The translations under genes were made by a program, and so were the position numbers. DNA of 64,000 bases from Phytopseudomonas punonensis. GTDB lineage: Bacteria > Pseudomonadota > Gammaproteobacteria > Pseudomonadales > Pseudomonadaceae. Below the pieces are notes generated by a model. That model made no database searches, was not told the DNA's origin, and worked only from the letters and a program-made list of their open reading frames with translations. The stretch is from NCBI RefSeq assembly GCF_900142655.1, contig NZ_FRBQ01000005.1, positions 124,001 to 188,000 of the forward strand, given 5' to 3'. Shown here in pieces: positions 5,494 through 34,032 of the stretch (position 1 is the stretch's first letter; every line of letters begins with the position of its first letter).

Positions 5494-7902
5494 TTGAAGA
5501 ATTCTAGCTCTACAGCACCGGCGCCAGCCTGGCGTCAGCAATTGCCATATCGCCTTAAAGAAGGCGCACTCATCGCCTTGGGTGCGCTGTGTCTCTATGT
5601 GTGGATGGCGCTTCTCACTTACGACCCGGCAGATCCGGGTTGGACCCATACCAGCAATGTGGAGCAGGTTCACAACGCTGCTGGGCGCGCCGGTGCCTGG
5701 TTCGCCGATGTGCTGTTCATGGCACTGGGCTATTTCGCCTATCTGTTCCCGTTGCTGCTGGGCATCAAGGCGCTGCAGGTATTCCGTGCGCGCCACGAGC
5801 CCTGGCACTGGAGCGGCTGGCTGTTCTCCTGGCGCCTGATTGGCCTGGTTTTCCTGGTGCTGTCTGGTGCGGCGCTAGCCTATATCCATTTTCAGACTGG
5901 TGCCAGCATGCCAGCCTCGGCGGGCGGCGCACTCGGCGAGAGCCTGGGGCAACTGACTGTTGCGGCTCTCAACGTGCAGGGCAGCACACTGTTGTTTATC
6001 GCACTGTTCCTGTTCGGTCTGACCGTATTCACCGACCTGTCCTGGTTCAAGGTAATGGATCTGACCGGCAAGATCACCCTGGATCTGCTGGAGCTGGTGC
6101 AAAGCGTCATCAATCGCTGGTGGAGTTCGCGTCAGGAGCGTAAACAACTGGTCGCGCAGCTGCGTGAAGTGGACGAGCGTGTCCATGACGTCGCAGCGCC
6201 AGTAGTCAAGGATCGTCGCGAGCAGGCCAAGGTCAAAGAGCGCCTGATCGAGCGCGAAGAGTCGCTCAACAAACACATGATCGAGCGTGAAAGCCGTCCG
6301 GCTCCGGTTATCTCCGCACCGATCGCACCCAAGGCCCCTGAGCCGAGCAAGCGTGTGCAGAAAGAGAAGCAGGCGCCGCTGTTCGTCGACAGCGCCGTGG
6401 AAGGCACACTGCCACCTATCTCGCTGCTCGACCCAGCCGAAGCGAAAAAGATCGAATACTCGCCCGAATCCCTGGCAGGCGTTGGGCATCTGCTGGAAAT
6501 CAAACTCAAGGAGTTCGGCGTCGAAGTCTCGGTGGACTCGATCCATCCCGGCCCGGTGATTACCCGCTACGAAATTCAACCTGCAGCGGGCGTCAAAGTC
6601 AGCCGTATCGCCAACCTGGCCAAAGACCTTGCTCGTTCGCTGGCCGTGACCAGCGTGCGCGTCGTGGAAGTCATTCCTGGCAAGACCACGGTCGGTATTG
6701 AAATCCCCAACGAGAACCGCCAGATCGTGCGGTTCTCAGAAGTGCTGTCGACCCCTGAATACGATGACGCCAAATCGCCGGTTACCCTGGCCCTGGGTCA
6801 TGACATCGGCGGCAAGCCGGTGATTACCGACCTGGCGAAGATGCCTCACTTGCTGGTCGCCGGTACCACCGGTTCCGGTAAGTCGGTGGGTGTGAACGCG
6901 ATGATTCTGTCGATCCTGTTCAAGTCAGGGCCAGAAGACGCCAAGATGATCATGATCGACCCGAAAATGCTCGAGTTGTCGATCTACGAAGGCATTCCGC
7001 ACTTGCTCTGCCCGGTCGTTACCGACATGAAGGAGGCGGCCAACGCACTGCGTTGGAGCGTTGCCGAGATGGAGCGCCGCTACAAGCTGATGTCGAAGAT
7101 GGGCGTGCGTAACCTGGCAGGCTTCAATCGCAAGGTGAAGGACGCCATCGAAGCAGGCGAGCCGCTGTCGGATCCGCTGTATCGCCGCGAAAGCATGGAA
7201 GACGAAGCGCCGCTGCTGAAAACGTTGCCAACCATCGTCGTGGTCGTCGACGAATTCGCCGATATGATGATGATCGTCGGCAAGAAGGTCGAAGAGCTGA
7301 TTGCCCGTATCGCCCAGAAGGCGCGTGCGGCCGGTATTCACCTGATTCTCGCCACGCAGCGCCCGTCGGTGGACGTGATCACCGGTCTGATCAAGGCCAA
7401 CATTCCGACCCGTATGGCGTTCCAGGTATCGAGCAAGATCGACTCGCGTACCATCATCGACCAGGGCGGCGCCGAACAGCTGCTTGGCCACGGTGACATG
7501 CTCTACATGCCACCAGGCACCAGCCTGCCGATCCGCGTTCACGGCGCGTTCGTGTCCGACGATGAAGTGCATCGCGTGGTCGAAGCCTGGAAACTACGTG
7601 GCGCACCGGATTACAACGAAGACATCCTCGCCGGCTCCGAAGAGGGCGGCGGTGGCTTCGATGGCGGTGGCGGCAGCTCTGAAGGTGGCGACGACAGCGA
7701 GTCGGATCCGCTGTACGACGAAGCGGTTAACTTCGTACTGGAAAGCCGCCGAGCGTCCATCTCCTCGGTGCAGCGCAAACTGAAGATCGGCTACAACCGC
7801 GCTGCGCGGATGATCGAAGCCATGGAAATGGCCGGCGTCGTCACCCCAATGAATACCAACGGTTCGCGCGAGGTGATTGCACCTGGTTCGAGCCGCGATT
7901 AA
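5494..7902 (+). CDS. ftsK: DNA translocase FtsK
   Basis: Septum-anchored ATPase that pumps chromosomal DNA toward dif and activates XerCD to resolve chromosome dimers. The 802 residues comprise an N-terminal part with four membrane spans (about 20-170), a linker with a charged coiled segment (about 210-270), and the RecA-like motor with Walker A GTTGSGKS near residue 457 and Walker [10 protein letters not shown]. After a Gly/Ser-rich spacer comes the winged-helix gamma domain (about 730-790), which reads KOPS. The start is TTG at 5494, with an AGGA-like site about 10 bp upstream; the N-terminus MKNSSS...[12 protein letters not shown] fits Pseudomonas FtsK. Its target, dif, is only 22.7 kb beyond the end of the gene. 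Confidence 0.97.
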
Positions 7903-26680: not shown

Positions 26681-26770
26681 ATGAAAGAGATTCATCAGGC
26701 TGACCGTTACACCGCAGCGCACAATCACCAGGCGGCGACAAGCCGAGAGGAGGGCGCTCATCATGAATGA
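26681..26770 (+). CDS. Possible 29-codon leader ORF between gntK and gntP
   Basis: ATG at 26681 is preceded by a strong GTGGAGG ribosome site. The frame runs 29 codons (M-K-E-I-H-Q-A-D-R-Y...) and stops at 26768-26770, eight bases inside the permease gene, whose own GAGGAGG site lies within the leader. An A-rich stretch AACAAACACAAG (26659-26670), resembling a Crc/Hfq target, lies just before the ribosome site. It could act as a translational coupling leader. No homologue is known to me; it may be coincidental. Confidence 0.4.
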   Translation: MKEIHQADRYTAAHNHQAATSREEGAHHE

Positions 26771-28136
26771 GGCGACCACCATGGGTGCCGGGGCACTGCT
26801 ATCCATCGCCGCCGGCGCGGTTCTGCTGCTGCTCCTGCTAATCATCCGCTTCCGCCTACATGCCTTTCTCGGTCTATTGCTGGTGAGCATCTTCACCGCA
26901 CTGGCTACGCAGATTCCCTTCGACAAGATAGTGCCGACACTGCTCGGCGGCTTCGGTACTACGCTGGCTGCCGTTGCGTTGCTGGTCGGCCTGGGTGCGA
27001 TGATCGGGCGTTTACTGGAGATCACCGGCGGCGCCCAGGTGCTGGCAGACACCTTGATTAACAAGTTCGGCGAACACCGTGCGCCATTCGCGCTGGGTGT
27101 TGCTTCCCTGCTGTTCGGCTTTCCGATCTTCTTCGATGCCGGTCTGATCGTGATGCTGCCGATCATCTTCAGCGTGGCCAAGCGCTTTGGTGGCTCAACG
27201 CTCAAGTACGCGCTACCAGCCGCCGGTGCCTTCGCCGCGATGCACGCTCTGGTGCCGCCGCATCCAGGGCCCGTAGCTGCAGCAGAACTGCTGGGCGCGA
27301 ACATCGGCCTGTTGGTTATCGTCGGTACCGTCATTGCGCTGCCAACCTGGTATTTCGGCGCCTATCTGTTCGGTCTGTGGGCTGGCAAACGTTACGACCT
27401 GAAATTGCCGGCCAGCTTTCTGACCGATGTGCCGCGCGATATCAACGTTACACCGCCGGCATTTTCGCTGGTGCTGACCATTCTGCTAATGCCATTGGTG
27501 CTGATCTTCCTGGATACCGGCCTAAATACCCTCACGGTCATGGGCGCCGTGGATGGCGGCAGCAGCTGGGTGCAGTTCCTGCGCATGCTCGGTAAAACGC
27601 CGGTGGCGCTGTTGATCACCGTGCTGTTTGCCTTGATCGCCTTCAGCGGCCGCCATAGCCGTCAGCACCTGGAAAAGGTCTGTGAAGGTGCGCTGGGGCC
27701 GATCTGCTCGATCATTCTTGTCACTGGGGCAGGGGGCATGTTTGGCGGTGTGCTGCGCACCAGCGGTATTGGTGATGCACTAGCCGCTACGCTGTCAGAC
27801 ACCGGCATGCCGGTGATCCTCGCTGCCTTCGTAATCTCTGCAGCGCTGCGCGTTGCTCAAGGTTCGGCCACCGTGGCACTGACCACCACAGCCGCGCTGG
27901 TGGCGCCGATGGTTGCCGCAACACCGGGGCTCAGCGAGTTCGACTTGTGCTTTATCGTGGTGGCCATAGCTGGTGGCGCGACGGTGCTGTCTCACGTTAA
28001 TGACTCCGGGTTCTGGCTGGTCAGCCGCTTCCTGGAAATGGACGAGAAGACCACACTAAAAACCTGGACGGTGATGGAAACGCTGCTGGGTAGCATCGCG
28101 TTCCTTCTGGCTGTCATCGGCAGCCTGATTCTCTAG
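26763..28136 (+). CDS. gntP: Gluconate permease, GntP family
   Basis: A 457-residue inner-membrane proton symporter for gluconate with 12-14 hydrophobic helices. Family features seen are the N-terminal L-L-L-L-L-I-I-R-F, the G-x-G-x-T-L-A...G-L-G-A-M-I-G-x-L-L-E stretch, G-F-P-I-F-F-D-A-G, and the conserved H-A-L-V-P-P-H-P-G-P loop. The C-terminal half has R-V-A-Q-G-S-A-T-V-A and H-V-N-D-S-G-F-W. It follows gntK by 129 bp and completes the gluconate module. Confidence 0.93.
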   Translation: MNEATTMGAGALLSIAAGAVLLLLLLIIRFRLHAFLGLLLVSIFTALATQIPFDKIVPTLLGGFGTTLAAVALLVGLGAMIGRLLEITGGAQVLADTLINKFGEHRAPFALGVASLLFGFPIFFDAGLIVMLPIIFSVAKRFGGSTLKYALPAAGAFAAMHALVPPHPGPVAAAELLGANIGLLVIVGTVIALPTWYFGAYLFGLWAGKRYDLKLPASFLTDVPRDINVTPPAFSLVLTILLMPLVLIFLDTGLNTLTVMGAVDGGSSWVQFLRMLGKTPVALLITVLFALIAFSGRHSRQHLEKVCEGALGPICSIILVTGAGGMFGGVLRTSGIGDALAATLSDTGMPVILAAFVISAALRVAQGSATVALTTTAALVAPMVAATPGLSEFDLCFIVVAIAGGATVLSHVNDSGFWLVSRFLEMDEKTTLKTWTVMETLLGSIAFLLAVIGSLIL

Positions 28137-28144
28137 CCAACCTG

Positions 28145-28190
28145 TACGAGGCCTTCACCGCGAGCAGCCGCTTGCGGTGAAGGCCTCGTA
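28145..28190. terminator. 17-bp perfect stem-loop behind gntP
   Basis: TACGAGGCCTTCACCGC (28145-28161) and its exact complement (28174-28190) with a 12-nt loop, starting 8 bp after the gntP stop. No T-run follows, so it may be a transcription-end stabiliser. It also lies downstream of the converging hydrolase gene. Confidence 0.6.
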
Positions 28191-28224
28191 TAACAACGGC
28201 TCGCTCATCGGTTACAGCCTTGAA

Positions 28225-28998
28225 TCACTGCGCAGCAACCTTATGCACGGCCTTGAGAATCACCTGGGCGACATCGGCAGGCTGGGATTGCTGCGGAACG
28301 TGGCTGGTGTTCAGCTCGCTCAAGGTTGCACCGATTCGCTTGGCGGCAGCGCGCTGAACGTCCGGGTGAATCATCCGATCCTGGGTTGCGAGCAGGTACC
28401 AGGACGGCTTGGTTTTCCACGCGGCAGCCGTAACCTTGTCTTCGAATGCGGACGCTTTGATCGGCCCCTGGGTTGCGGTCATTACGGCAGTCTGTGCTGC
28501 CGGCAGATCCTGAGCGAAGTCCTTGGCCATGCCTTCGGCCGTCAGGTAGATATAGCCATTGCTATCGACCTTCAGCTGGCTGATGCCAGGAGGCGTCGGC
28601 GCTCCTTTACCTTGTTCGCCGCTGGTTTGCCCGGCTTGCGGTGCAAACGCAGCCACGTAAACCAACGCGCTGACCTTCTTGTCGTTACCGGCTTCGGTGA
28701 TGACCGTGCCGCCCCAGGAGTGGCCGACCAGTACGACCTTGCCATCCTGATTGTTCAGCACTCGCTGGGTTGCAGCCACGTCGTCAGCCAGGGAGGTAAG
28801 GGGGTTCTGCACCACGGTGACGGTAACGCCTTCGGCCTGCAGCAGCGGCACCACCTTGGCCCAGTCGGAACCATCGGCGAACGCACCGTGTACGATCACT
28901 ACCGAAGGTGAGGTGTCGGCAGCGTGGCTGGTGCCAAGGGTCAGACTGGTAACGATGGCCAGTGCGATTGCAGCGATTTGAGATTTGACGGTTTTCAT
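28225..28998 (-). CDS. Secreted alpha/beta hydrolase
   Basis: A 257-residue protein from the ATG at 28998 (AGGAG upstream), with a signal peptide cleaved near S-H-A-A (about 27), so periplasmic or exported. The domain has the oxyanion region V-I-V-H-G-A-F-A-D-G-S-D-W (about 34-46) and the nucleophile elbow G-H-S-W-G-G (Ser94). It also has an acidic residue in A-T-Q-D-R-M-I-H-P and a catalytic-His candidate in T-S-H-V-P-Q-Q-S. It resembles the EstC/salicylate-esterase-like group of small alpha/beta hydrolases. The substrate is unknown. It is divergent from the HD-GYP/LuxR gene, 91 bp away. Confidence 0.88.
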   Translation of the reverse strand: MKTVKSQIAAIALAIVTSLTLGTSHAADTSPSVVIVHGAFADGSDWAKVVPLLQAEGVTVTVVQNPLTSLADDVAATQRVLNNQDGKVVLVGHSWGGTVITEAGNDKKVSALVYVAAFAPQAGQTSGEQGKGAPTPPGISQLKVDSNGYIYLTAEGMAKDFAQDLPAAQTAVMTATQGPIKASAFEDKVTAAAWKTKPSWYLLATQDRMIHPDVQRAAAKRIGATLSELNTSHVPQQSQPADVAQVILKAVHKVAAQ

Positions 28999-29089
28999 TG
29001 CGTAAACTCCTGTGTGGGTGTGATTCAAATTCTGCTGCCCGAGCCGACTGGCCGGTATCGGTCATTTATCCGATCCAAGGACTTTTCTG

Positions 29090-30529
29090 GTGAACGACGC
29101 TCCGTCACTTCTCGTTTCTCCGGGCGCAGCGTTGGCTGCCATTTCCCAAGTGGGCGACCTGAGCATGGGCCAGCCGCTGGGGCATTCCATGCGGGTTGCC
29201 AGGCTGGCCAGGCAGTTGGCGCAAGCCGGTGCAGGGCAGGGTGGTCACCTGGCTGTTGCCGAGCATGTCGCGTTATTGCGCTGGTCTGGCTGTACCGCCA
29301 ACGCCGAAGGCTTCACACATTTGCTGGGCAACGATGTCGACGGGCGCCGCGCGATGCTCGACCACACGCTGGGCGCCGATGACATGCGCGCAGTCCACAA
29401 GGCGAGCTCCCTGGCCGTGGTGCACTGCGAAGTATCGGAGCAGGTGGCCAGCACGCTCGGGCTCGGCGCGGACGTAGAAGGAGCGCTGTATCGGGTCTTC
29501 GAAACCTATGACGGCTTCGGCCGGCCCGCTGGGCTGACCCACGGACAAATCCCTGAAGTCGTCTATCAGGTGGTGCTGGCCGGTGACCTGGAAATTCTCA
29601 GCCGCACCCACGGCCTTGATTCAGCACTCGACTGGATCGGCGCCCAGTGCAACAGGCGTTATCCGGCAGCGCTTGCCGAATTGCTCATGCAAAACGCCGC
29701 AGACTGGTTGGCGCGACTGGAAATCGTGGCCGAATCAGCAGCCGTGGAAACGCCGCAAAACGCGGTACCACTGAGCCTGGTGGGCGATGTAATCGATTTG
29801 AAATTGCCCTGGCTGGCGGGTCATTCGCGCCAGGTCGCGCACATAGCCGTCGAAGCTGCGCGCTTGTGGGGGCTGAGCGAAGCGATGCTCACGGAGATCG
29901 GTAAAGCCGCGTTGATTCACGGCCTTGGCCGCGCAGCAGTCTCCAACCATATCTGGAACAGCCCGGGCCCGTTGCCGTATGGCGCAACGGAGCGGCTGCA
30001 CTTGGTACCGTACTGGACGCAGAAAGCCTGCAAGCGCATTCCCGAACTCGCACGGCCAGGTGATATAGCCGCCCATGCATACGAACGGCTCGATGGCAGC
30101 GGGTACTACCGTGGATTATCAGGTGACACGTTGAATGCCGAGCACCGGCTGTTGGCGACCGCTAATGCCTGGGTTGCGCTGCAAAACGACAGACCCTGGC
30201 GACCAGCCCATAGCGACCAGGAAGCGCAAAACGTCCTCAGACAAGATGCCAACCGAGGTGCATTCGATAACGAGATTTGCGAAGCGGTGATCGCTGCCGC
30301 AAATGGCAGGCAACGACTCGCACAGCCACGGAGCTCGTTGCTTACCGTTCGTGAGTGCGATGTTCTCGGTGAGATCAGCCGTGGTGCCAGCAACAAAGAA
30401 GTAGCACGAACGCTGTCGATCAGCCCAAGCACCGTGCGCACGCACATGGAAAGCATCTTTCGCAAACTGGAGTGCTCGACGCGAGCTGCAGCCACATTGA
30501 AGGGGCTGACGCTGGGATTGATCCAGTGA
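29090..30529 (+). CDS. Tandem degenerate HD-GYP protein with C-terminal LuxR helix-turn-helix
   Basis: A 479-residue likely transcription regulator. Two HD-GYP-like units are visible. The first spans about 20-190 (G-H-S-M-R-V-A-R-L-A, then F-E-T-Y-D-G-F-G-R-P-A-G-L). The second spans about 235-390 (A-G-H-S-R-Q-V-A-H-I-A, L-I-H-G-L-G-R where L-H-D-I-G-K is usual, and Y-E-R-L-D-G-S-G-Y-Y-R-G-L where H-E-R-x-D-G-x-G-Y-P is usual). Metal-binding HD and HHE residues are replaced, so cyclic-di-GMP hydrolysis is unlikely. The last 60 residues form a LuxR/FixJ DNA-binding domain (L-T-V-R-E-C-D-V-L, S-N-K-E-V-A-R-T-L-S-I-S-P-S-T-V-R-T-H). GTG start with AAGGAC upstream. dif lies 46 bp after the stop. 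Confidence 0.85.
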   Translation: MNDAPSLLVSPGAALAAISQVGDLSMGQPLGHSMRVARLARQLAQAGAGQGGHLAVAEHVALLRWSGCTANAEGFTHLLGNDVDGRRAMLDHTLGADDMRAVHKASSLAVVHCEVSEQVASTLGLGADVEGALYRVFETYDGFGRPAGLTHGQIPEVVYQVVLAGDLEILSRTHGLDSALDWIGAQCNRRYPAALAELLMQNAADWLARLEIVAESAAVETPQNAVPLSLVGDVIDLKLPWLAGHSRQVAHIAVEAARLWGLSEAMLTEIGKAALIHGLGRAAVSNHIWNSPGPLPYGATERLHLVPYWTQKACKRIPELARPGDIAAHAYERLDGSGYYRGLSGDTLNAEHRLLATANAWVALQNDRPWRPAHSDQEAQNVLRQDANRGAFDNEICEAVIAAANGRQRLAQPRSSLLTVRECDVLGEISRGASNKEVARTLSISPSTVRTHMESIFRKLECSTRAAATLKGLTLGLIQ

Positions 30530-30575
30530 GTTACGAGAATTGCACTGTGGAATGGCGCAGGATCGCAAAGCCATA

Positions 30576-30603
30576 ACTTCGCATAATGTATATTATGTTA
30601 AAT
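30576..30603 (+). other. dif: Chromosome dimer resolution site dif (XerCD site)
   Basis: The 28-bp site reads as XerC arm ACTTCGCATAA (30576-30586), spacer TGTATA (30587-30592) and XerD arm TTATGTTAAAT (30593-30603). Spacer and XerD arm are identical to E. coli dif as I know it, and the XerC arm differs only in its outer bases. Arms show the expected imperfect inverted symmetry. It lies in a 247-bp gene-free gap. The presence of dif marks the replication terminus, where FtsK-activated XerCD resolves chromosome dimers. Confidence 0.95.
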
Positions 30604-30742
30604 TAAATATCACGAGCTAGAACCGAATTTAGAGACGAGTCATGATTTCTAGACGTCGCGGATCAAACTGCCTGGGCGCTCGAGAAGTCACCACAGAGGT
30701 ATGCACCTCTAGCACCGGGCACATGTTCCACTGTTCGCCTTT

Positions 30743-30765
30743 CACAAGAAGCGCCTTACGGCGCT
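30743..30765 (-). terminator. Short terminator-like hairpin after the lipoprotein gene
   Basis: On the minus strand AGCGCC, a GTAA loop and GGCGCT form a 6-bp G+C stem followed by TTCTTGT. It starts 11 bp beyond the stop of the 609-residue lipoprotein gene, between it and dif. Confidence 0.6.
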
Positions 30766-30776
30766 CCACTACCACC

Positions 30777-32606
30777 TTACTTTCCGCCGACCGAAAACTT
30801 CGCGCCGTTGTAACTTCCCTGGAATATCTGCAGATCCTTGCCCGTCTGAGCCATCACTGCTTGGCGCAAGCGAGCAAAACTTGGGCTAGATCTATCATAG
30901 GCATGTCCTGCGTTCATCACTACAGTGCGTGTATCCCCTGAACCTTCGACAGTTGACGGGTAGTAGCTGCTTAGCAGGATCAGTTTGATATTCTCCCTGC
31001 CCTGCGTGATTCTCCACGTGACCGCCTCATAAGAGCTCAGCACCAATATGACCGGCTTGCTAACTGGGCGCACGGCAATGTCGACTATGCCTGGGCGGTT
31101 TCCTGACCCCTTACCCTTCGGTAAAGGATTCGTTGACTCATAGACCCCGACCCCTTCAAGCACTGCATCCTTTGCGATGGTAGCGAAGGGCGGCGGCGGT
31201 GACGTTTCGTAAACTGACGCTGAACTGGAACCCATTTGGGGGCTCATGCTGTTGAGCTTTTGCATCTGCTCTTCAAGGTTTCGGCTATCCAAGAACGCTT
31301 GAAGACTCTCTTCCTTCCCTTGTTCAACCTTGAGCCCAAACCAGATTCCACCCCCACCCCGCCTAATAAAGCCAGGTCGTCCATCCAGCCCGCTAATCGT
31401 GCCGACGCCCTCGGACGGTAGCATTGCAGGAGCGATAGTTTTGGCTTCGAGATTCAGAACCCATGATTGCGTTCCGGAACTGCGGAAGAGCGAATCAACC
31501 AGAATTTGGTTCTCGCTGAGCTTGGCGTAGCGACTGCTTAACAATGATCCGGTCTTCCAGGCACTCTCCTCCCCTGACTGCAGATCAACCGCTAAAAGCT
31601 CCTTATTACCTACGAAAAGCAACGCACGACCTGAGAAGATGGGGGTTGGTTTTGACGGGCTGACTCCGTAGCCGCTTTTCAATGCGTAGCTTTTTACAAC
31701 GCGAGCTTGAATGACATTGTCACTTCGCTCGTAGGCTACCGATGAGAAGGATCGCCCAGCTCCAATAGCAACTGACCCATCACTGAGTTCAAAGCCCCAC
31801 TGCGGGCTCTCCGCCGGAGATGAGTCGGCGGAGAACGTTCCATTCAACAAGTCGACAACCACTGTTTTACCATTGGCGTCGGTCGCTAAAGCTGCAGAGA
31901 TCCTGGGCAGCCAGACCAGCAATCTGCGCAGCGTATTATCCTGCCACAGAAGCTCTGCAGTCTCAGTGTCGTAAAAGCTGAGACCTTCTCTGGAACCGCT
32001 TGAAATCGCAAGAACTCTACCATTAGGCGAAAGCAAAGCTTCACTGAAGCTGTAACGTCCATTTGTTGCCAATTTAGCGATCAGTTTCCCGCCTGGAATT
32101 TCTATCGAGTGAATCCCGCCACGGCCGTCCTGGAGAACTGCGACACCTGCTGCTGCCGCTGAAATAGCGGACATTGCGGAGCCGCCAGAAGGTATGAGCA
32201 CTGGAGCACCGAGCTCTATCATTGGCCGCAATGCAGGCATGCTGAGTCGTCTTTCGATCTGTTTCACCTGCAGATAACGCAGCAAGATTTCATCCTGAGC
32301 GTTCAGGCACTCACGGCTCACTGGACGCGTCTTGATCTTCTCGACCGAGTCAAAACGGGAAATCTCCATGCCTTGGCTACAGGTCAGGCCGCGAATCTCA
32401 CGCAGCACCTTATAGCGAACAGCAAAGGAATCGTTCGCGCTCAGTAAGTCCTGTAGCGTTTCCTCTGCTACGCGAACCTGCGGACTGGGTGGGAATGCCC
32501 GATTTAGCTTTTCACCTGCCGACAGGAATGCTTCCTCGACAAATGAACAGCCGGACAGACTTAGAACAAGCGCAATGCTGGTAACTAATCGCAAGCGGAA
32601 CTCCAT
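30777..32606 (-). CDS. Large lipoprotein of unknown function, probable beta-propeller
   Basis: A 609-residue protein with a lipoprotein signal: lipobox L-S-G-C, Cys20, followed by Ser, so outer-membrane sorting is plausible. Residues about 130-430 contain repeated short beta-strand blocks (for example G-R-Y-S-F-S-E-A-L-L-S-P-N-G-R-V-L-A-I-S-S-G and F-Y-D-T-E-T-A-E-L-L-W-Q-D), the look of a WD40- or PQQ-type propeller. A predicted helical/low-complexity linker (about 440-480) leads to a C-terminal domain around V-I-L-V-L-S-S-Y-E-A-V-T-W-R-I-T. The gene is clearly richer in A+T than its neighbours and lies next to dif, suggesting acquisition by transfer. I do not recognise the family. Confidence 0.75.
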   Translation of the reverse strand: MEFRLRLVTSIALVLSLSGCSFVEEAFLSAGEKLNRAFPPSPQVRVAEETLQDLLSANDSFAVRYKVLREIRGLTCSQGMEISRFDSVEKIKTRPVSRECLNAQDEILLRYLQVKQIERRLSMPALRPMIELGAPVLIPSGGSAMSAISAAAAGVAVLQDGRGGIHSIEIPGGKLIAKLATNGRYSFSEALLSPNGRVLAISSGSREGLSFYDTETAELLWQDNTLRRLLVWLPRISAALATDANGKTVVVDLLNGTFSADSSPAESPQWGFELSDGSVAIGAGRSFSSVAYERSDNVIQARVVKSYALKSGYGVSPSKPTPIFSGRALLFVGNKELLAVDLQSGEESAWKTGSLLSSRYAKLSENQILVDSLFRSSGTQSWVLNLEAKTIAPAMLPSEGVGTISGLDGRPGFIRRGGGGIWFGLKVEQGKEESLQAFLDSRNLEEQMQKLNSMSPQMGSSSASVYETSPPPPFATIAKDAVLEGVGVYESTNPLPKGKGSGNRPGIVDIAVRPVSKPVILVLSSYEAVTWRITQGRENIKLILLSSYYPSTVEGSGDTRTVVMNAGHAYDRSSPSFARLRQAVMAQTGKDLQIFQGSYNGAKFSVGGK

Positions 32607-32920
32607 TTCCAGAAGGCCTGTTCAGCGGGAGCTAAAGCAATTTAGATCTAGCGCTGCGGATGCTAATGACAGAAGTGGTGAGAGGCAAGACGCATGCCCC
32701 TACTAATCGACCAGCCATATGCTTGATCAGCTCGGTCTAGCAGTGAGGAACAGTGCCCCAGCCGTCACCTGCTGCATCTATCATGCTAGTCAAAGCATCG
32801 GCCCACCTAACCAGCCCAGAACGCCTTTCCAACCGCGATCAGTCCAACCTGGCACTAGAGGCGCAGCCCATCCTTGGGAGATTCCGCGCTTGTTCAACGA
32901 GCTTCGCCGTGTACACGCCA
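32607..32920. other. Gene-free stretch, 314 bp
   Basis: No convincing gene, repeat or RNA seen. A plus-strand frame of 83 codons starting at 32719 has no recognisable domain and runs into the opposite-strand GNAT-Rnk gene. The segment presumably holds the promoter of the lipoprotein gene at its left end. Confidence 0.5.
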
Positions 32921-33829
32921 CTAAAGATGATAATCCCCCGCCGCCTCCGGCTGATAAAGCACCTTCCTGATCTCGATCTGCCGAGTACGACCAGCGATTC
33001 GCCAGTCGATGGCGTCGCCTTCCTGATAGCCCAGAATGGCGGCGCCGAGGTCGGAACAGACTGAATGTTTGCCGGCGCTGCTGTTGGCGTCTTCGGGGTA
33101 AACCACGGCCACTTCGATCTCTTCGTCGTCCAGTTGCACCAAGGCTCTGGAATTCATCGTGATGACAGTGCCTGGCACCTGATCCGGCTCGACGACAACG
33201 GCGCGTTCGAGCTCGTGTTCGAGTTGGACGACTGGGCCGTCCTCCAGCGCGATCAGGTTGTCGAGTTTGGCCTTGTCCATTTCGGTGATGTAGATCCCGG
33301 GTGCATCATGGAAGGCATCTTCACGTAGCAGCTGCAGATAACGTCCCGCCGTCATGGCCCACGACGTCATGGTCGGCGTTTCGCTCTCCAGCTCGAAGCC
33401 GCTGCGTTCAAAGGCTTTCTGCGAGCGCAGGTTTTCGGGATGAATGTTGGCGATGAGCTTATCGGCACGCATATCGAGAAAGGCGAGTTTCATACCTTCG
33501 CGGATGGTGCGGGTGCCGAGGTTGCGTCCCCACTTTTCGCTGTCGCCGATGGCCAAGACGATCTCGCACTCCCTGTCGGTCTTGATCAGACGGACGAAGC
33601 CCACCGGCTCGTCGTGCCGGTCATAGGCCATGAAGAAGCGGCCGCCCCGGTTAAAGAGATGGGTCAGGATCGGCAGTTGAGTCCGCTCGATGGTGTGTTC
33701 GATGGTGCGGGAAACATCACGCGAATCGCTCAGGTAGCAGGTAACGCGATCATCTTCCAACCAGTCCATCAGCTTCAGCGCATGTGCCCGAGTAATTTCA
33801 GGGCACAGCGAAATGAAAGGCTTGTTCAT
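32921..33829 (-). CDS. Fusion of GNAT N-acetyltransferase and Rnk-type nucleoside diphosphate kinase regulator
   Basis: 302 residues from the ATG at 33829 (a GTG three codons upstream is the alternative). Residues about 1-165 are a GNAT domain (F-M-A-Y-D-R-H-D-E-P-V-G-F-V-R-L, then W-G-R-N-L-G-T-R-T-I-R-E-G near the acetyl-CoA loop, N-I-H-P-E-N-L-R-S-Q-K-A-F-E-R-S-G-F). Residues about 175-302 match Rnk and the GreA/GreB C-terminal domain: V-I-T-M-N-S-R, A-V-V-Y-P-E-D, L-G-A-A-I-L-G-Y-Q-E-G-D, and the ending Y-Q-P-E-A-A-G-D-Y. Rnk-type domains bind RNA polymerase near the secondary channel. What the acetyltransferase half modifies is unknown. Confidence 0.88.
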   Translation of the reverse strand: MNKPFISLCPEITRAHALKLMDWLEDDRVTCYLSDSRDVSRTIEHTIERTQLPILTHLFNRGGRFFMAYDRHDEPVGFVRLIKTDRECEIVLAIGDSEKWGRNLGTRTIREGMKLAFLDMRADKLIANIHPENLRSQKAFERSGFELESETPTMTSWAMTAGRYLQLLREDAFHDAPGIYITEMDKAKLDNLIALEDGPVVQLEHELERAVVVEPDQVPGTVITMNSRALVQLDDEEIEVAVVYPEDANSSAGKHSVCSDLGAAILGYQEGDAIDWRIAGRTRQIEIRKVLYQPEAAGDYHL

Positions 33830-34032
33830 CTTCACCACACATATTTGAAGGATTTAAAGCCCTTCATGGCTATGGCCATGACGGTTCTTTCGGCAACCGG
33901 CAAGTTTAAAGCATAGGGCGAGTAATTCCGACCCAACTGCCGGCTTTTCCTCCAAAGATGTCTGGGGTTGGTCGATCACAGGTGCGCAACAGGGGGCGCC
34001 CCCGTGACGAGCATCCTTCCCCCTAAAGTGAA

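Follow-up and report, generated by a model that had tools for sequence, protein, structure and literature searches.

Is the 28-bp sequence ACTTCGCATAATGTATATTATGTTAAAT at positions 30576..30603 (+) the chromosomal dif site, and does it mark the terminus of replication? The sequence lies in a 64-kb window (the whole stretch of DNA that was analysed, contig C13:124001-188000) of a 4,809,638-bp draft genome in 20 contigs. Positions below are those of the window unless a contig is named, and distances are counted from dif, with positive values to the right.

As the reference for the 28-mer we used a sequence that we take to be E. coli dif, and the limits of the two arms and the central hexanucleotide were set from the same presumed sequence. 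Against it, the 28-mer showed mismatches at 3 of the 28 positions (1, 2 and 4), all at the outer edge of the XerC-side arm (ACTTCGCATAA, 30576..30586, +; arm positions 1, 2 and 4). The central hexanucleotide TGTATA (30587..30592, +) and the XerD-side arm (TTATGTTAAAT, 30593..30603, +) were the same as in E. coli K-12, with which 25/28 positions are shared; the initial annotation had described the likeness in just this way. The runner-up place in the 64-kb window had 12 mismatches to E. coli dif, on either strand, and the own reverse complement of the 28-mer had 10. Compared to the dif sequence of P. aeruginosa PAO1, as given in PMC2731167, only positions 1 and 2 differed (2/28), which are the two outermost bases of the XerC arm. 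The 28-mer has a G+C content of 21% and is intergenic. It was also confirmed to stand alone in a gene-free gap between a LuxR-type and a lipoprotein gene; this gap is 247 bp long (30530..30776), has 48.6% G+C vs 62.7% in the window, and is flanked by convergent genes.

The pattern used to search the draft genome spanned 26 positions, 24 of which had a defined letter, and as many as 3 mismatches were tolerated. Exactly one match was found in the 4.81 Mb, as had been predicted from the window, and this match was 30576..30603 itself at 0 mismatches; the reversed control gave 0. A match was present in 133 of 149 genomes of the genus (an even sample of a larger group, with the own genome among the 149), exactly one each, and the reversed control gave 0 in 149/149. 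A looser pattern applied to the 16 genomes without a match produced a hit at 0-1 mismatch in 12 of them; with this pattern the mismatch counts are informative but the number of hits is not, because the reversed control gave 19 hits vs 18 real ones. Variants with CGTGTAATG accounted for 9 of the 12. Under the looser pattern G081 was ambiguous (2 mismatches), and with both patterns no dif candidate was seen in 3 of the 149 genomes (G069, G072 and G075, the last being 87% complete). In part of the genus, CGTGTAATG is found in the XerC arm, and the nine genomes of this kind were missed by the 3-mismatch search.

With the own genome being in 20 contigs, the distance between oriC and dif was taken from relatives. 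In all nine relatives chosen for their few contigs, dnaA and dif were separated by about 47-53% of the genome length, as calculated by hand with genome sizes rounded except that of G012.

KOPS polarity and the recombination machinery

Contig C13 was scanned over its whole length for the KOPS octamer GGGNAGGG. Left of dif there were 21 forward and 1 reverse copies, and right of dif 1 forward and 21 reverse copies (Fisher p 4.6e-10). The nearest copies on the two sides, at 29234..29241 (+) and 30995..31002 (-), both point toward dif. The best interval for the switch in polarity was -1.4 to +0.4 kb, tied with +8.5 to +10.7 kb. Stretches of 320 kb each from G012, G001 and G008 were compared with this contig; the best switch interval bracketed dif in 4/4 genomes and was the single best one in the three relatives. 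Pooled over the four genomes, 163/173 copies were oriented toward dif, which placed KOPS first in a set of 56 composition-matched octamers that includes KOPS itself (some of them carry N at an edge and collapse to the same 7-mer). The other 55 had a mean polarity of 76%, and the runner-up reached 92% of 39 copies. The KOPS bias exceeds the plain G-richness of the leading strand, since its polarity was the highest among these same-composition octamers.

The single copy, the convergence of KOPS and the position of the counterparts in relatives, about opposite dnaA, uphold the original reading of the 28-mer: it is almost certainly the chromosomal dif site of a Pseudomonas species. As a dif site it is canonical, of an ordinary and already catalogued kind, with nothing new in the site itself. 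This system and the XerCD-FtsK-KOPS system described for P. aeruginosa PAO1 share 26/28 positions of dif, its single copy, its intergenic location and the bias of GGGNAGGG toward it.

In the own genome, XerD (391 bits, contig C16) and XerC (354 bits, contig C10) were both identified above the cut-off, along with several weaker tyrosine-recombinase hits. ftsK, encoding the DNA translocase (5494..7902, +), lies within the same window, about 23 kb from dif. Its FtsK gamma domain (7699-7881, C13:131699-131881) is the one such domain in the genome. The score with the FtsK model was 793 bits, below the cut-off of 1566, probably because the model represents the E. coli protein, which is longer.

By analogy with E. 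coli and P. aeruginosa, FtsK at the division septum would read the polar KOPS octamers, which point to dif from either side, and would pump DNA until the two dif copies of a dimeric chromosome come together at the septum. FtsK would then activate XerD, and XerC and XerD, presumably bound at dif, would swap strands at the 28-bp core, so that the dimer is resolved. Each of these steps, from translocation and XerC/XerD binding to XerD activation, strand exchange and dimer resolution, is transferred here from the system in those two species.

GC skew and the position of the terminus

By convention, as stated in PMC2731167 and PMC6199493, cumulative GC skew has its maximum at the terminus; the "GC-skew minimum" expected there in the initial annotation should therefore read maximum. 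The raw cumulative maximum was at +54.2 kb, which is beyond the window. When 1-kb bins within 120 kb were fitted with a two-level model, the changepoint fell at +55 kb (support 54-56), 18.5 logL ahead of a changepoint at dif. In G012 the cumulative maximum was at +22.8 kb, with support for the changepoint from -1 to +31; it was at -6.8 kb in G001 and at -2.4 kb in G008. For PAO1, PMC2731167 lists an offset of 14,962 bp vs the 54 kb found here, and for 161 proteobacterial chromosomes it gives dif-to-skew distances with a median of 7,277 bp, a third quartile of 21,446 bp and a maximum of 199,612 bp. The 54-kb offset is large yet not unprecedented, because it is above that third quartile and below that maximum.

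One explanation of this offset is that the switch 54 kb to the right is a separate and real replication terminus, from which dif has been displaced. The tight support for the raw changepoint is in its favour, and so is the third-position skew, balanced for strand, between 0 and +55 kb. Right of dif the skew is expected to be negative; here it was neutral over this range (0.001, vs -0.014 in G001, -0.025 in G012 and -0.095 in G008) and turned negative only beyond. However, the switch in KOPS polarity is found at dif, or no more than 11 kb from it, and not at +54 kb; 54 kb amounts to 1.1% of the genome, inside the range of 0.00-1.39% that corresponds to 1 sigma in PMC3025954. Gene strand, which shifts skew, also argues against a separate terminus: from 0 to +20 kb, coding is 8% plus-strand and 92% minus-strand here, vs 53% and 47% in G001 and 32% and 68% in both G012 and G008. 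A gene-strand model with one switch placed this switch at -18 kb, with a support range of -23 to +1 kb and dif 0.86 logL under the best position. Such a model, based on a crude ORF caller, is a coarse locator and supporting evidence only: it disfavoured dif in G012 (4.26 logL), G001 (5.10) and G008 (2.13), so that dif was within the 2-logL support in the own genome only, with G008 narrowly outside. A skew switch near the site had been anticipated in the initial annotation; the raw switch at +54 kb goes against this, whereas the range of the gene-strand model spans dif, if coarsely.

The replication end itself need not be at dif; in P. aeruginosa PAO1-UW it is far from it. In that strain, according to PMC6199493, segregation ends at dif and replication opposite oriC, and GC skew follows dif rather than the replication terminus. 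The first point lends some weight to a displaced terminus and the last speaks against reading the skew switch as one; on balance we consider a separate replication terminus at +54 kb improbable. Because replication in PAO1-UW ends away from dif (same source), the accurate label for the site is segregation terminus and dimer-resolution site. Of the original designation "replication terminus", the placement of the window in the terminus region holds, and the dif site correctly anchors it there; an end of replication at dif itself goes beyond the evidence, as PAO1-UW illustrates (PMC6199493).

With dif kept as the segregation terminus, the main cause of the 54-kb skew offset is likely gene orientation, namely a run of minus-strand genes, since the strand of a gene influences its third-position skew. 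Orientation alone may not account for all of the offset: between 0 and +55 kb the strand-balanced skew is neutral in this genome, and the gene-strand model disfavours dif in the three relatives. DNA gained recently may contribute as well. From 0 to +40 kb right of dif there was almost no blastn cover in G008 and G012 (hits over 300 bp), and the collinear stretch of G001 lacks about 10.5 kb (+17.2 to +27.8). An inversion was also considered as the source of the offset and rejected; KOPS copies from 0 to +55 kb mostly had right-arm polarity (8 reverse, 1 forward). The raw GC-skew peak can thus stand 54 kb from dif, and even in such a case KOPS polarity pins dif closely.

Elsewhere on C13, the segment from -36 to -17 kb is inverted and located on the opposite side of dif in both G008 and G012. 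This placement is what terminus-spanning inversions would leave.

Variable genes beside dif

Upstream of the gap, a gene for a 479-aa regulator with HD-domain (HD_5) and LuxR-type (GerE) matches is located at 29090..30529 (+). On the other side, a gene at 30777..32606 (-) encodes a lipoprotein-like protein of 609 aa, with LSLSGC in its N-terminal region and a weak PQQ_2/BamB-like match (28.6 bits, cut-off 27.6). Both neighbours look accessory. Relatives of the LuxR-type gene were compared in 53 named loci, mostly of Pseudomonas (the closest from Pseudomonas sp. G34, 90%), and adjoined dif in two of them only (L016 and L042). For the lipoprotein, tblastn at 1e-15 found no relative in the other loci compared (L016-L110 and four contig stretches). 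The variable region is anchored on the left by a GntP permease gene (26763..28136, +), found near dif also in L016, L042 and G001, and on the right by a gene whose product combines a GNAT acetyltransferase with a GreA/GreB C-terminal domain (32921..33838, -), found near dif also in L016, L042, G001 and G012. The two anchor genes match those of Pseudomonas sp. G34 (L016) and Pseudomonas sp. PA27(2017) (L042) at 85-97%. The assignment of the own genome to Pseudomonas is based on these relatives of the LuxR-type and anchor genes. The product of the fusion gene has a Rnk N-terminal match as well.

Between these anchors, the genes flanking dif vary between relatives, and similarity among the compared loci ends just beyond the dif core. 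In the collinear stretch of G001, no blastn hit over 300 bp was obtained in the 2.4 kb left and the 2.3 kb right of dif. Dif and the right anchor lie close together in G012 (about 0.13 kb apart) and L016 (about 0.15 kb), but they are separated by 2.3 kb in the own genome, by 5.4 kb in L042 and by 7.2 kb in G001. The mixed gene orientation and accessory content of the window had been attributed to its position at the terminus; such a relation is conceivable, and ftsK, a core gene, lies in the window too.

Genes that vary on either side of dif, and an interval to the right anchor that ranges from about 0.13 to 7.2 kb, might be expected if the 28-mer were an attL/attR remnant of a dif-integrated phage or another Xer-hijacking element instead of a functional chromosomal dif. 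We regard this origin as very unlikely. The genome has a single dif-like site at <=3 mismatches, the 133 matching genomes of the genus have one each, and an intact dif is found beside an empty interval in L016 and G012 (right side only). Comparison of 28150-32950 with the phage collection ('distant' blastn) gave no match, and PHROGs revealed no phage structural or integrase family among the five neighbouring proteins. An element flanked by two dif-like sites (IMEX) was not found in the genome, the window or the aligned far ends, and the distal end of the lipoprotein insert showed no dif-like site either. The candidate examined there, at 32630 (-), was rejected; it had 12 mismatches, which is chance level, and four other places in the window were equal to it. 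Since neither a second dif-like site nor a phage match was found, Xer-mediated integration beside dif is not supported. The same 'distant' search of 28150-32950 against plasmids returned 234 records, all with less than 80% cover of the query; the best 20 of the 234, with 8-18% cover at 64-72% identity and mostly under alpha/beta hydrolase genes, are not informative.

On the XerD side of dif, the slot bounded by the GNAT-GreA/GreB gene is empty in two relatives (L016 and G012) and filled with unrelated cargo in three genomes (own, L042 and G001). In L042 the cargo consists of RraA-like, 2-hydroxyacid dehydrogenase and MFS genes; in G001 a peptidase-M48 gene adjoins dif and is followed by a gene for an 1818-aa helicase/nuclease protein. 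From these five genomes we offer only as a speculation, with a rather small chance of being right, that within this Pseudomonas clade the slot acts as a minor hotspot where genes are gained and lost, with varied cargo and no second dif; breaks and their repair at dif during division could drive the turnover, as opposed to integration by XerCD. The 1818-aa protein of G001 (L134:13027-18483, -), encoded by the second gene from dif, has DUF4011, helicase, MTES_1575 and WGR matches, with PADLOC matches to the candidate system PDC-S37 (687 bits) and to Hhe (340 bits), and is a candidate anti-phage protein.

Likeness to loxP

The site had also been said to resemble half of loxP, and it does: compared with what we take to be the loxP sequence of phage P1, the region of the 28-mer matched at 26/34 positions ungapped and at 18 of the first 19, and matched the right half poorly. 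Despite the 26/34 match, the idea that the 28-mer resembles dif by chance, or is a lox-like site of another recombinase, has a negligible probability in view of the poor right half, the convergence of KOPS on the 28-mer and a chance of about 0.002, estimated by hand for equal base frequencies, that 4.8 Mb would contain any hit to the search pattern with <=3 mismatches, the actual hit having 0. In context and conservation the site is of the dif type, unlike loxP of phage P1. Judged from the flanks of relatives, the resemblance looks coincidental, because ATAAC, the upstream bases that give rise to it, is present directly left of the core in just 2 of the 30 genus loci compared (L077 and L097, counted by eye).
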